64,000 nt of DNA. Source: Branchiostoma floridae. Lineage: Eukaryota > Chordata > Leptocardii > Amphioxiformes > Branchiostomatidae. Position 1 is the stretch's first letter; every line of letters starts with the position of its first letter. Both the position numbers and the translations under genes were made by a program. The notes beneath the pieces are model-generated. The model made no database searches, was not told where the DNA came from, and saw nothing but the letters and a program-made list of their open reading frames with translations. Of the stretch, positions 20,851-29,559 are shown one piece after another. The stretch lies in the NCBI RefSeq assembly GCF_000003815.2, contig NC_049986.1, positions 10,085,915-10,149,914 on the forward strand, read 5' to 3'.

Positions 20851-23800
20851 CTAGCGCCGAGTGACGCACATATTCACTGTTGGTGGTGAAAGACCCATGC
20901 AGTCATCGGCCGACGGTGCAGCGACGCCCTCTGGCAACTTCAAGGTGAAGTGTTTCAGGAGGGAAGAAAAGAGCAGAAAGAGCTCCATCTTAGCCAGCTG
21001 CTCACCGAGGCAGACACGGCGTCCTTGATACAGGATGATACGAAGTAAGAAACAAAACTAAAAAAAGTTGACACCAACTGCTTGGTTATAACTTTATAGA
21101 GTACTTTAAAAGGTTGTTTTTTTTTCAGAACTGGGAGAGCAAAACGTCTATTTTCATTGGCACCAGAGAACTATCGCAGTCGATCGCGAAGAAAAATACT
21201 TCTATGGAGTTTTCGGCTGAATTTGGGTTTAAAGACTTACCAGCAGAAAAGGGTAGGTACGAGTCCGGCCTGCTGACCACTTTGCCGTCAGAGTCCAGGA
21301 ACCTACGGGGGTCAAAAGTCTCTGGGTCCGGCCAGTATTCCGGGTCCATGTGGGCTGACCACAGGTTGGTAAGGACCTTCATAGCGAATAGACGACAAAA
21401 AAAAGTTTGTTTCTGACACTATCTGCACTGTGATCGTGAGGCTCTCTATGTACATCATGTGACATAACACGTAAAATATCATCATTCTTCATACAAAAAA
21501 GTATCAACGGTGAAAATGCCAAGACCTATATTCTTACACAAACCTCACTTTTCAGTGACGTCGACTCGATCAGTGAACCATCGGGGTTCTACAAGTAAAG
21601 AAACGCAATGAGGATAACGAAACGTAAATAATGCATATACATTACTCACCTGCATTCCCGCCGGGATGTCATAGCCTCGGAAAGTCGTGTCCTCTGTAGC
21701 AGCGTGAGGAGCATTAAGTGGGGCTACAAGCCTGATGCGCTGGATCTCCATGATAGTAGCCTCGGTATACGGGAGCTGGGACCTGTGGGCCAGGGTGGGC
21801 ACGTCATGGTCTGTTCCCAGGACACTGTCCAGCTCAGCATGGACCTGTTACAGATTTTTCTCATGTGAATCAATAAAGCTTACTACAGCTATAAGTGTAA
21901 CAGTGTTTTGTTTTCCTTTTCAAATAAGGCATTTGGGGTTCCAAGTGCGCACATTTGAACTTATGGCTCCCTGGATTAGCAAAAAGATAAGCTCGTTTAC
22001 CATTCCGAGTACGCATGCGCAGTACCAGGAATTGTGGGTAGTACTTCAAATGTATACGTCAAATCGAACCCTCTACAAGATAGCAGACCTTTGCATAAAA
22101 ATCTAGACAATTCTTGAACTTTGACCTAGACCACAATGAATTACGTAACGTACGGTACCTTCTGCTGTTCCTCTGGACACAAAACCATGTAGAGAAGACC
22201 CCATCGCAAGGTGTTGGCTGTGGTCTCCATTCCAGCGAAAAACATATTTTGAATGATCCACACAATATTCTCCTCTGTAAAGCAGTCGGTCTGCTCTTGG
22301 GTCTGTAGTTCGGTGAGGATGAGGTCGATGAAGTCTCGTGGATTCTCGTTGTCCAGGGTCTCGCGATGCTTTATAATTTCTTGTCGAAGAAATTCGTGGA
22401 CCTTGTTAATGCATTCGACAAGAATCCTGTTTGCTGAGTTAACTGTGAAGAAAACAAAATTCAGTATGTTGGTGTCCCGGTAATTTAGACATGAAATGAT
22501 TGTCCGATGATGAACCCTTCACATAGTCATTGTCTACGGCTCAAAGAAGAGAAGTAGGATTGGTTAATACTAGTCATACGTACTAGCCGAAAATCAAGTT
22601 TTCAAACATAAATCCAGGTATATATTTGAGATCCTACCTCCCGGTACGAATCGCAGAAAGGGAAACACTGTCATCAGCTGACTGGATCCATGTTCAAATT
22701 GGGACAGTAGCTTGTGTATAATCTTGGTCAGTTCGACGAACTTTTCATCATCGTAGCCGTAGCGTTTCCCGAACACCATGGAGCAGATGATGTTGGCGAC
22801 TGACACAGTCAGGTTGTCGGCGATGTCACGTGGATGTCCATCTCCTTGCTCGGACAGCTTAAAAAATGCACACCACATGGGTCAGATTGTCCGTCCTCTC
22901 ATGCCATGCTTATGTATTTTTGTCAAACAAAGACCCTGCACTGCTGCTTGCTATCGCCTCCCTGCTCTAGCGCTGAGCAACAGGCACCAACCAATCACGT
23001 CTCAGCCTACAGTGAAAAGGCCATTTGATTGGCCTACTGAAACCGTAATAACATGATCACTACTTATGTGCAACGTTATTCAAGCCTAATGTGGGTTTAA
23101 AATGTCAAAAGTGGGAATATTCACAAAATACCTTTATGCAGAGCTGACGAGCCTCTTCTCTGATGTGTTCTTCCACGCTGCCAGGTCCCATTCTCATTCC
23201 CAGAGTTTTTAGGGCACTGACGGCAAACCTACGTTTTTCCAAGTAGGCTTGGTTGAATTTTGAGAGGGCAATATCTGTGAGATAAATATGCGGTATGTCA
23301 TGCATTGAAACTCTGCTAGTAAACTGGAAATTTGGTGGCCATATGATGAGTCATTTGGGAGTTAGAAGGGGCGTGCCTCAAACGCCCCCCCCCCCGTCCC
23401 ATGTTGATAAAAAAAAGTCCGGTCTGAATAGTATCGACTCCTATAAGGGCTTATTCTTTATCATTGATTGTACACACAGGTCTCCAGATACAGGCTACTA
23501 TCAAACTACATTGTTTACTTAAAATCTAAAAACTACTTGGCTGCACAATAAGCTTTAGTATTATGTTGATACGTAAAGTAAAGAGAAGAACATAGCATAC
23601 CTTTCCCAAAGCCAGATACTAGATTCAGCAAATAGACGCTCGGCCTACTGGAGAAAGCGTCCTTGTAGTCCACAAGCGCCTCTTTGATGGCCCGGTAGCC
23701 GTTCAGAACCACCACGTCTTCCATCCCCATTCGAACAGTGTACACGTCGCCATACTGCTCAGTGCGACTAAGACATATCTCAAGACCCCCAGCAAAGCGG

Positions 23801-26800
23801 GCGTTGGCTGCCCTAGCAACACATAGATACAACCTTTGACCCTGAATTTTCCTCATTTCCCCTATTGTTCGATAATTACCCCCTCCCCACCCAGTGTGAT
23901 AACAATGCAGGGAGGGTGCCAGTGGACCAGGTGAGGTGATGCCTGTCCTCCTGTGGAGTGTGAAATATCAGACTGTCTGGGATTGGTGCTGGATGTGTAT
24001 TATGATTGACAAAGGATTTCCTGGGTTTAGGAGTATTTCTAATAACTTACACACTGATTGATTCACGGTTTCATCAAATTTGACCACTTTAATTACAAAT
24101 AGCCCGACAGAATCTTATAAAGATAACCAAATTCAACCAGGGTGTAATCTGACCAATTAAGCTGACCAATAGTTTGATAATTAGCTTCGCCAAGAAGCTT
24201 ATGTTTTTGTCGACTTGGGTCTGTATGTAGGTCAACAGGATATAACTCGAGAAATTGTGGATGGAACTTTTTTATTTTTTGCAGGTGTGTAGCGGTTGTT
24301 TAAAGGCATGCCTAGTTCGAAAATGGGTTACCTGGCGTTTTCCTATGGTACATTAGCGAGCTTGGTATTTTTTTTGGTGTTTTTTCGGGAGGCATAAGTC
24401 AAAATGTAGCTGGGCGATTTCTACGATATTTGGCAGGTCTGTAGCGGCTGTGGAAAGGATTGCCATGTGCGAGAATGGTTTAGCTACCTTTTACCTATGG
24501 TGCTGTAGCTGGCTTTGTATGTAAGTGCGTTTGTCTGTAAGCAAGATAACTCGAGATGTTCTTGATGGATGTTAATGATATTTGGTTGATAGGTAGGGGA
24601 CACAGAAAGGAAGGTCAAGTTCGATAATGGGCCTCCTGGCAAATTGTTTTGGTACTGCAAGTGAGCATCAAAGTTTGCGCCTAAATTTTCCAGAAGTGCC
24701 AGGTTCGTGATTTTTTACTGGTGGATAGCTGTTGGTACTAGGAGTCAATGGTCTAATTTTGGGCCCCCTAGCAGCTTGTTTGGAATTGCAGTGGGTGTTA
24801 TATTTCGTAACTTTTTAGATGGATAACTCCTGAGGGGATTGATGGATATATTTGTTTTTGGTAGGTAGGTACTTTGGATGATTATCAACATAATGAGATG
24901 CAAATTATATAAATCACTCTGTATTTAATATAATTACTTAGGGAAACTTCTATAACGGTTGAAAAATACTTGTGACGGAGTCACCTGAAAGGACTTGAAT
25001 CGACCCATAGATGTCTAAAAATAGAGAAGTAGGTCAAAGGAGCCAGTGGAAGCAGGGGCTCCCTGATAAACAGACGTTGTCTTGGAAGCATGAAATTCTG
25101 ATTGACCAGGGATGTTACTAGGTCATCCATGTACTATTCCGCCAGGATGGAGTCTGGTAGAGACTACTGGCTGAAAAATGCCTATAAATGGTCATGGTTC
25201 ATGTTAGCAAAATACAAAGCCTGACCGTGTCCAACACGTATCTATAAAATTAAGCAATTAAATAGCTTGCTGAATTGATGTCAATACGACGGCACACAGC
25301 AAAGGATTCATAGCAGTTGAAATATAACATATCTATATACAAGTGTTGCTTATATCTATATACAGATCAACAATAAAAGTAACACTATATCATGGGAACG
25401 GTAAAAATGTAGTAGAGGGAACTTGACGAATATCACTTGATATAAAGATGTAGAGCTAATATCTACGAGACACTTCAGGTGTATTTTCTTATGATGGACT
25501 GCAAGGAAACTTGGTGTTCCATGTGCCAGTAACACTACATGGGTCTAAACAAACGAATAAGTACTATGTAAAGTCAGTAATATAACATAATTGAACAATG
25601 ACGGCTTGTAACACATAGTACTTACATCTGTGAACTAGGTTAAAACAACAAGTGACCAAGTGCTGGGACAAGACAAACCCAACATGTTGAAGAACAGCAC
25701 TTAGGTCAAAAGGGTCACCGTCAATTATCCACGCATTCCTCAACTCTTAACAGAGATGTCATGTTGTAAGGGAAAGGTCGGCTAGAAAGAACTGACATCA
25801 TTGCGAGAAATACAAATCGCCAAAGGTGACAGGCGGCTGTCATCGGACAGTCGCAGAAATCATAACCTTGGACTCTGTAAAATACCTCTGACTTAACTCG
25901 CGACTGCAAAACTTTACTTTCTATTTTCATGAGATTGAAACAAACGTTCACCAAGGCGGGGGTCGTAGCAATCCTTACATATGGCCCTTAGATGACCCTT
26001 GGTGAGTTAAAAAGTTCCGTAAATTGGAAGGAACAACTGTTACAGTGGCCGGGGTTTGGTGAGTGACGAATGCAATTATCGGCGTGACTTCCTGTGGTTT
26101 CCAGGTTTCCAAGACCTACCCACGTACCAAATATCACTTCAATCCATTCAGCCGGTCTTCAATTTGCTGGTTTCTACATACATACATACATACATACATA
26201 CATACATACATACATACAAACGCTACCCAAAACATAACCAGCTCTCCGAAAGTAATTATGACAACACAAAATAGAACAGTAACCTCATACCTGTACAAAT
26301 TGTTCTGATTATGCAAAGACATTCATTCACATCGCCAAAACATTTGCTGCATTATGTACACCGACAGAATAGACTAATCTACTCACAATGTTCATAATCC
26401 AACCAACCACTACATGATGTGACTAGATAACATATGGACTTATACACATTAATCATTCAAAAAGAACTATCTTCCATAGAAATTGTTTATTTGGCGAAGA
26501 TATGTGTTCGAGGAACTCTAGTTCCCCATGTTCTTTCCTGGATCTGATGCCGGCTTTGTTTGTTTTGATAATCGATTTTTATTCCAAAACAAGGTATTTG
26601 ATAGAAAACAACGCTCAGATGAAAACTGTTGTACCAATAGTCTGTTTGATATACTACGGTTACGTAACCTACCACACACACATTTTTTTTAGCAAAGTTC
26701 ACAAGAGCAAGGACGTTATAGTTGAGAAAACACTCTTTTGATAGAGATAAAGAGATAACGGATTGTATTGTAATCAAAGTCTCAGTGTAAGCACGTCTAA

Positions 26801-29559
26801 TCCTCGTGTGTCAAGGAACAACAGGCAATAACCTGGATAGTTTCAGTCTGGGAGTGTAATTAACTTGTTCTCTTCGCCAATGGCGATGAGTATGTTTTTG
26901 TCGACTTGGGTCTGTATGTAGGTCAACAGCATATAACTCGAGAAATTGTGGATGGAACTTTGTGATTTTTGGTAGGTGTGTAGCGGTTGTCGAAAGGAAT
27001 GCCAAGTTCGAAAACGATTTACCTGGCGTTTTCCTACGGTACTGCAGCGAGCTTGGTATGTTTTTTGCAGTTTGTTTTGGGCAGCATAAGTCAAAATCTA
27101 GCTGGGCGATTTTCAAGAAACTTGGTAGGTGTGTAGCGGTTTTGGAGAGGAAGGTCAAGTGCGAAAATGGTTTACCTGGCTCTTACCTACGGCACTGTAG
27201 CGGGATTTGTATGTAAGTGCGTTTGTCTGTAAGCAAGATAACTCGAGAACCCTTGAATGGATCCTGATGATATTTGGTAGGTGGGTGGGGGTCAAGAAAA
27301 CGAAGGTCAAGTTCGATAATGGGCCCCCTAGTGACTGCCTAAGGTACTGCAGCAAAACTTTTATTTTTGACACTTCGTGTTTTGGATATGCTGTGGTCAT
27401 GATTTTTGAGTGGTAGATAGCCCTTGGGGCAGAGAGTAAGTGCTGTGAGTTTGGACCCCCTAGCGGCTTTTTGGGAACTGCAGGCACCGATTTCCTTTCA
27501 AACTTTGAACGAGAATAACTCGAGAACGTGTTGACGGATCATCAGGATTTTTTGGTATGTAGATAGAATGAGTACTTAAAATAATAATCTACATGGAAAG
27601 ATGCATTTAATTGTAATCAGTGGCCAATTAACAGAAATAAACTGTTTTGTATATACATGTATCTCACTTGACCTATATCTATGGACACATCTGTTTGACA
27701 GATGTTTGTACTGGAGGAAACACTGACAAGCCGTGAGCTGGACACTGAAAAGCTTGAAATTCTGATTGACCAGGGGTGCTATCAGGTCATCTTGTACAAT
27801 CAGGTCTTGTTTTGGTAGCATTTGTGGGGTTTGGGGGTAGGTACTATTTAGTAATACATGAATAAGACCTTAAAGTCTTAAATAAAGGCATGATTTAGTA
27901 ATACATGAATAAGACCTTAAAGTCTTGAATAAAGGCATGATTATTTGGCGAAGAGATGGGTTCGTTGAACTCTAGTTAAAAAGAGTATCGCACCACTCTA
28001 AGTTACACATTTTGCTGCTCCTTTAATACATGCTTAAGCTGTCGCCAGACTGTAATTTCAGGGCCACACAGGCCAGCTCTGACAGCTCCAGAGCCCACAT
28101 TCAAAGGTTTTTGTTGCCTGTCCCGGGCTGGCCCTGAACAGATGCAGCTTTTTACCTGTTGTGCACTGACATAGTTGAATGTTGACACTATGTTTGTATC
28201 ATTCTATATTTGTTTAAGCTATAAATTGCAGTAAAGCTATAACATGCTGTTAACTACGTCTTACTCTCTAATTTTGAACTTTTGGTCACTCTGTCAATAA
28301 CCAGCTGCCTAAGAATTCCCTTTATGTACACAATTGTTTTACCAAATTTGTTACATAAGTCACTTGAATCCCTTCATGCCAAATGCCCTCATAAGGCCTC
28401 TTGCAACATTCAAGCAAGGAGCTTTTAACAGTTTGATTCAAGTAACTTCAGTGTACATGAGCATCTTCCATTTGTTTCAAGGAAAATTTTGTTTCTGATT
28501 GCAAACATATCTTTGATAGACAGTTATGTCTTCTGTGTACATATTGTATTTTGAAATCCATGCTTCATAACAATTCTTGTAACATATTCCTTGTTTACAC
28601 TAAATTACAGCCATGTTTGTGTTTTGTTGATATAACCCAAGCCAAGCTGTCTGCCACCTATGCCACTTTCAAGCAAAGGTGTGAACACCTGGCTATTGTT
28701 TTCCTCAGGTGCTGAGCTACCCTGCTGTCAGTGCCCTAAGTAAACAAGTTAATTGCCCTTATTGTCCACTTGTCCAAACAAAGATATCAAATTTCACCCA
28801 TGGAGGAGCCAAAACTTGAATATTTGTAATTTTATTCTATTTCAGAAGGTGCAACCATATGCAATATATTTTGCGGTCATAAAAGACATTTTTAGAAAGT
28901 AGACATGTGGTGCTACAACATCCAAGTGGGAATGTACATTGTAAAGTCACTAGGACTTAACAAGACCTTCATGAATATTGCCAATATGCCATTTTTGTCA
29001 ATATTTTTAACATATTAAAGAATATCCTTGTTATTATTGGATCAGCAAGCATGTACCTCCCTGATTGTTACAGAGTACTTATTGATGAATACATACATAC
29101 CAAATTTACTTCAATTAGATATACCTTAGCGATGCACCAAGAGCCTAAAAGCGATAAAATGCAGCAGTGCTTATTATTCATATAATTTAATATCAATTAT
29201 ATTTATGTGAAACCAATGAAGTCAGACTAAATCTTATGGACATGATACATGGCCAGTAATTGAAGATTTTATAATATTACCACCAGGTAAACATTTATTA
29301 CACCAGAAAGTTTCCAGGTCAGTTAATTAGCCAAGGTGGGCAAAACCTGTCTTAACAATACTGAGTGCTTCCTCCACTCCGTAAGCTTCAGGTGGGGCGC
29401 TCGGCCGAGGGACAACAGGTGGCCGACAACAGGCCAGCTCCCACTCGGTGACGGTGGGAGGTTCTTACGCCGTTTGAAGAAGACCAGAAGGGTCAGGAAA
29501 ACGACGCAAACTACCACGATGGTCCGGATGGAGACTTCTGACAACAACGCAGCCAACAT
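20851..29559 (-). CDS. CYP2-like cytochrome P450, gene D; first exon split by a 5.6-kb insertion
   Basis: A CYP2-clan monooxygenase gene. Exon 1 lies in two pieces: 29368-29559 (ATG, membrane anchor, hinge, to TEWRK) and 23601-23757 (from [11 protein letters not shown] to GFGKG). The pieces total 349 bp, exactly the length of exon 1 in A, B and C. Remaining exons are 23132-23274, 22638-22857, 22159-22442, 21650-21844, 21241-21376 and 20851-21023, all open with GT-AG borders. Motifs are intact: AGMETT I-helix, [13 protein letters not shown] and FSAGRRVCLG. Exon 3 has two extra codons and exon 7 two fewer than the paralogues. Without splicing of the insert, translation after TEWRK leaves the P450 frame and ends within about 14 codons. 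It is therefore either a very young pseudogene or a gene that removes the insert as a new intron. Confidence 0.85.
24178..26522 (+). repeat. Dispersed element R2 (family of R1)
   Basis: Starts with cttcgccaagaagcttatgt and ends with ttggcgaagatatg and then gaggaactctagttc. It matches R1 (3648-4964) in inverted orientation over most of R1, including the 'ctgattgaccaggga' and 'ctagcagcttgttt' blocks. A (catacata)n stretch and unrelated sequence expand it to 2.3 kb. Confidence 0.6.
26167..26219 (+). repeat. (CATA)n microsatellite
   Basis: About thirteen uninterrupted cata units inside element R2. Confidence 0.9.
26866..27976 (+). repeat. Dispersed element R3 (family of R1)
   Basis: Starts with ttcgccaatggcgatgagta and ends with ttatttggcgaagaga followed by ttgaactctagtt. 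Interior blocks (gtatgtaggtcaacag, gataatgggccccctag, ctgattgaccagg) match R1 and R2. A 45-bp direct duplication (agtaatacatgaataagacc) lies at 27850-27940. No gene is present. Confidence 0.65.
27977..29365. other. Right part of the gene D insertion, no gene seen
   Basis: AT-rich sequence between R3 and the right terminus of the insertion. No open frame resembling a transposase or any known family was seen. Confidence 0.4.

Follow-up and report, generated by a model that had tools for sequence, protein, structure and literature searches.

When a transposon lands in a coding exon, does it break the gene, or is it spliced out as a new intron? A cytochrome P450 gene of amphioxus raises this question. 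The window, the whole 64,000-nt stretch of DNA analyzed here (G000:C8:10085915-10149914, within a searched genome of 513 Mb), contains five P450 genes, whole or partial: A, B, C, and D on the minus strand and E on the plus strand. In D, an insert of 5.6 kb interrupts exon 1. A preliminary description of the locus proposed that this insert had become an intron. We favor a different reading, to which we give a probability of about 0.8: D is a recent loss-of-function allele or nascent pseudogene, disrupted by a transposon and probably still segregating with empty alleles. The parts of gene D are as follows, in order of transcription.

29368..29559, minus strand: first piece of exon 1 (192 nt; codons 1-64, up to TEWRK)
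29366..29367, minus strand: target-site duplication CA, upstream copy
23756-23757, minus strand: target-site duplication CA, downstream copy (with which the second exon piece opens)
23601..23757, minus strand: exon 1, second piece (157 nt, QYGDV... up to GT)
23132..23274, minus strand: exon 2
22638..22857, minus strand: exon 3
22159..22442, minus strand: exon 4
21650..21844, minus strand: exon 5
21241..21376, minus strand: exon 6
20851..21023, minus strand: exon 7 (contains GRRVCLGE; stop TAG)

With exons 2 to 7 added, the exon-1 pieces make up a complete reading frame (1500 nt, 499 amino acids) with a p450 domain (Pfam PF00067) at residues 35-488 (E 7.9e-124). D is thus a CYP2-like P450. It shares the p450 domain with the CYP2 clan, and its closest solved structures are CYP2B and CYP2C, the top match being a CYP2B enzyme (E 9.7e-100). 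Seven exons are found in B, C, and D, with exon 1 interrupted in D. Exons 2 to 7 are intact: AG precedes each of them, and GT follows exons 2 to 6. The GRRVCLGE motif of exon 7 is presumably the haem-binding region.

The insertion is precise. The two exon pieces were described as 192 and 157 nt, together matching the 349 nt found in the paralogues, and these lengths hold against A, B, and C. When aligned, however, the pieces total 353 positions versus 351 in A, B, and C; the surplus is a second copy of the 2-bp CA, a duplication that the preliminary description had missed. Its insert coordinates (23758-29365) are exact, with both edges falling on the ends of dispersed repeats, and we confirm its reading of the insert on the gene strand: the start is CTCAGTATTG (CTCA-GTATTG...) and the end is CACTGAG. 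If set after the first CA, the insert lies in codon 65, phase 2, although the duplication leaves an ambiguity of 2 nt. Read without splicing, the D frame continues as ...TEWRKHSVLLRQVLPTLAN and then stops, 14 codons past codon 64 and before the haem-binding part.

We compared exon 1 with its paralogues in the genome (150 scored hits of 204 candidates). It is unbroken in 15 close paralogues (at least 87% identity, including A, B, and C), and D is the only split member of this group. Fourteen of the 15 cover residues 1-116/117, and one (L046) covers residues 10-117. Retention of an ancestral intron in D alone was rejected, because exon 1 is unbroken in these paralogues and the insert ends are repeat ends.

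The insert is a 2.16-kb transposon with terminal inverted repeats (TIRs; ends CTCAGT...ACTGAG) and a 2-bp target duplication, with two later repeats inside it. The preliminary description had also missed these nested repeats, N1 and N2, which account for 3.4 of the 5.6 kb.

23758..24182, plus strand: outer TIR transposon, piece 1 (terminus CTCAGTGCGACTAAGACA)
24183..26521, plus strand: nested repeat N1 (2339 bp, flanked by TT on each side, ending ...CTAG)
26524..26869, plus strand: outer TIR transposon, piece 2 (boundary from the empty site in other copies)
26870..27975, plus strand: nested repeat N2 (1106 bp, flanked by TT on each side, ending ...CTAG)
27978..29365, plus strand: outer TIR transposon, piece 3 (terminus ...CTTAACAATACTGAG)

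The three outer pieces sum to 2159 bp. A repeated TT shifts the starts of the BLAST matches, which place piece 2 at 26519 and piece 3 at 27972. The boundaries of N1 and N2 were read by eye. The two nested repeats are related to each other, and neither occurs in any other full copy of the outer element. By their features (TT flanks and CTAG ends), we take them to be Helentron-like, as a candidate class; elements of that class are otherwise marked by a Helicase/Rep partner, a terminal hairpin, and a T-T target. The first ~220 nt of N1 match at least 27 other genomic places at 98-100% identity; N1 is therefore also young.

The ends of the outer element, CTCAGTGCGACTAAGACA and CTCAGTATTGTTAAGACA, are short, imperfect inverted repeats, and the dispersed copies share CTCAGTnnnnnTAAGACA at both ends. 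A genome search with the left junction returned 12 other places, matching from the insert edge (query positions 57-59) to 24182, and 10 of these 12 have both ends. Four copies (L009, L011, L013, and L016) are 2153-2159 bp long, and the remainder range from 1606 to 2311 bp. With the window included, eight of the 11 copies with both ends carry a 2-bp duplication (expected by chance at 1/16 each): CA in L009, GA in L011, TA in L010 and L016, and TG in L012, L017, L018, and the window. There is none in L013, L014, or L015. This count leaves out L019 and L020, for which no right end was recovered. The right end of L019 was located in L058, and this relative, ~10% diverged, has an AG/AG duplication. 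Across the 513 Mb, and including the window, we found 11 left termini (at most two mismatches) and 15 right termini (at most three), while reversed-pattern controls gave 0 matches. These searches score the best candidates only, so the counts are lower bounds for diverged copies. The family is very small. The longest stop-to-stop frame is 92-141 amino acids in 10 copies, and the element is apparently non-autonomous. No transposase-bearing relative emerged from the frames listed for L019 and L020.

Two known kinds of element resemble this one in part. ISL2EU, described as a PHIS-type small-duplication DNA transposon, likewise has TIRs and a 2-bp target duplication, but it duplicates AT (A|AT|T), whereas our element has CA, TA, GA, and TG, and its relative AG; on the description of ISL2EU given there, we rejected this identity (PMC4482050). 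The LanceletTn MITEs of Branchiostoma are, by description, also non-autonomous inverted-repeat lancelet elements that alter gene structure; one of them, LanceletTn-2, is reported inside a gained intron of the lancelet gene PRHOXNB (PMC5802833) and is a precedent for a transposon within a new intron.

Two other places carrying the element or its relative deserve mention in their own right. At L019 (1-700) and L058 (1-460; G000:C8:522100-526360), the relative is inserted just before the apparent stop of a C2H2 zinc-finger frame. Read by eye, the original end would have lain a few codons further on, and the C-terminus is now encoded by the transposon, which is not an intron. At L072 (1013-1444), an open frame ends 56 nt before the right terminus of the outer element; we take this frame to resemble an F-type lectin exon.

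The insertion is young. In 2159 columns aligned with nine sister copies, 11 substitutions (0.51%) are private to the window copy; the diverged L018 was left aside in this comparison, as were L019 and L020. Together with the repeat-end edges and the 2-bp duplication, this bears out the preliminary view of a clean, young insertion with inverted-repeat ends. It is not brand new, given that two further insertions lie within it. The intactness of the later exons of D, also noted in the preliminary description, is correct, but its gloss that this is expected if the gene still works does not discriminate: an insertion 0.5% old leaves exons 2 to 7 intact even in a dead gene. Ratios of dN/dS are 0.31 for D versus C and 0.35 for D versus B, similar to C versus B (0.34). 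D has been constrained through most of its history, although dN/dS is silent on present constraint.

We propose the following course of events for the disrupted allele. A DNA transposon belonging to a very small and young family landed in codon 65, in exon 1 of array member D, and two other repeats then inserted into it. The unspliced frame ends early, ahead of the haem-binding part. Splicing at the GT and AG in the transposon ends would bring the two exon pieces back into frame, but these sites score poorly, so most D transcripts should be truncated or mis-spliced. From its age, we infer that the allele probably still segregates with empty alleles. Several observations count against this account. 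The intact exons and the low dN/dS are also expected of a working gene; a distant P450 has a predicted intron at codon 65; the insert contains a strong acceptor at 23951; the splice model is narrow; and there are two nested insertions.

A closely allied reading is that the gene itself is functional and the insertion a rare or polymorphic allele of it, captured in the assembled haplotype, and that the species keeps D working through empty alleles. This refines the disrupted-allele account rather than excluding it, and the odds of the two overlap; we think that it has a somewhat better than even chance of being correct. Heterozygosity in amphioxus is given as 3.2-4.2% (PMC12500494), and the private divergence of 0.51% is well under half of this value. 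Two alleles drawn at random thus differ far more than the window copy has diverged, and the insertion could well be polymorphic. The long-term purifying selection on D points the same way. No second intact D-like copy appears among the matches listed, as expected for one assembled haplotype. On the other side, there has been time enough for two further insertions inside the outer element.

The preliminary description suggested instead that the insert may be removed by splicing. In this case, splicing at CTCA|GT and GAG|, or at AGACAG|GT with GAGCAG|T, would give D a 5.6-kb intron, and its P450 would be altered only slightly, and in frame, just ahead of YGDV. The arithmetic behind this proposal is correct: CTCA plus the 2-bp duplication makes 6 nt, and the terminal GT and AG are thus in frame at any site and in either orientation. 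The sites themselves argue against it. We scored them with weight matrices built from 23 donors and 23 acceptors of window P450 genes A to E, a narrow model whose sites were placed by eye. The sites named in the proposal are as follows.

29360..29361, minus strand: donor GT in CTCA|GTATTG (score -3.6)
29345..29346, minus strand: second donor GT in AGACAG|GTTTTG (score 3.5, higher than one of the 23 real donors)
23758..23759, minus strand: acceptor AG in CACTGAG| (score -6.3)

The terminal donor lies below all 23 real donors (1.5 to 11.9 in leave-one-out scoring). The same strand of the window has 4099 GTs, of which 63% score at least as high. Likewise, all 23 real acceptors (-1.9 to 12.1) score higher than the terminal acceptor CTGAG|, and none of the 23 ends in GAG. 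The terminal pair totals -9.8. Judged by these scores, the claim that the insertion has turned into an intron appears mostly unsupported.

The second in-frame donor suggested in the preliminary description does exist. Paired with GAGCAG|T, an acceptor three bases past CACTGAG| that scores -1.7 (above 1 of 23 real acceptors), it totals 1.8 and adds six codons net with no stop. This is ordinary for random DNA. For 300 length-matched random segments, drawn from the whole window including exons and insert and substituted at this site, the best pair had a median of 0.2 and quartiles of -3.3 and 4.7; the suggested pair falls between the median and the upper quartile. Pairing was limited to sites at most 600 nt inside and at most 60 nt outside the junctions. 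The best in-frame, stop-free pair scores 6.5, a value reached by 17% of the random segments, and joins a weak exon donor (GGA|GTGGAG) to the acceptor at 23951 inside the element. Two stronger sites lie within the insert on the gene strand. The donor AAG|GTATAT at 29124 scores 8.9, and the in-frame stop stays upstream of it. The acceptor CCACAG| at 23951 scores 10.9-11.4, and its in-frame, stop-free partners are weak donors only. With the insert reversed, no pair exceeds -0.6, the total for the terminal donor joined to the acceptor that lies three bases beyond the end. The splice potential of the insert is within the chance range.

Codon 65 can apparently tolerate an intron. The distant P450 mentioned above (L052, G000:C9:21702400-21703400) is predicted to carry a GT-AG intron in codon 65 and in phase 2, as for the insert in D, with boundaries read by eye as GA|GTAAGT...TTGCAG|G; the coincidence of position may be due to chance. 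This intron, the working frame arithmetic, the six-codon pair, the intact remaining exons, and the LanceletTn-2 precedent favor the new-intron proposal. Against it stand the site scores and the limited test of other copies given below, and we regard it as improbable. A related possibility is that the geometry shared by the family (CTCA|GT...AG| plus a 2-bp duplication) makes its members removable in frame, and that D already produces some full-length P450 through weak splicing at these or nearby sites. The insert would then be a nascent intron, caught within the population where another P450 has an intron. We consider this about as improbable.

The preliminary description further likened the insertion to an introner gain. 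Introners were found in 175 of 3,325 genomes in a survey that, as described, places them in only two groups among animals and land plants, both of them animals (PMC9860276). The likeness is real in several respects: introners include TIR-type elements with short inverted ends, target duplications, and GT/AG within the ends, and they can add a few codons in frame when spliced, as computed for our insert (12 bp in an Aureococcus case; PMC9860276). However, reported median lengths of introner families are 30-654 nt (PMC9860276), versus 2.16 kb for our element. The outer element also differs in having at most ~15 copies, one of which interrupts a conserved coding exon, and weak splice sites, with no introns recognized among the copies. 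When the flanks of the 10 other full copies were joined, the longest frame per copy was 43-117 amino acids, and the four longest had no Pfam match, a test that short exons could escape. Frames near three further copies with the right end only gave no recognizable sign of an intron either. These 10 full copies appear to offer no support for an introner family, although small exons could escape notice, and with 11-15 termini in 513 Mb, window included, the idea of an introner-like gain appears unsupported. Titles and opening lines of abstracts on lancelet introners and transposon-derived intron gain contained nothing on this case.

Nothing was found in favor of the insert having been misjoined into exon 1 during assembly, and we consider this very improbable: each edge of the insert coincides to the base with a repeat terminus, the 2-bp duplication is perfect, and the nested-repeat junctions are clean too.

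The part of exon 1 that received the transposon has a history of its own. The insert lies within a ~200-nt tract that spans roughly nt 103-300 of exon 1 and is near-identical in 16 paralogues.

29457-29368 plus 23757-23650: homogenised tract in D (also in A, B, C, and loci L032-L046)

Mean pairwise difference in the tract is 0-5% per 20 nt, versus 7-25% in the other exon-1 bins, and introns likewise differ much more than the tract. Fifteen of the 16 paralogues, including D, are on C8 (0.12-10.1 Mb), and one is on C16. The homogenisation probably reflects gene conversion, which could also erase an insertion of this kind. An exon-1 tract homogenised across two chromosomes merits separate attention.

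What the insertion in gene D means depends on its splicing. If the insert is left unspliced, this is an ordinary but well-dated transposon break in a P450 array, and it would provide a usable presence/absence marker. If it is spliced, it would be a young chordate intron gain caught early, an event that is rarely observable.
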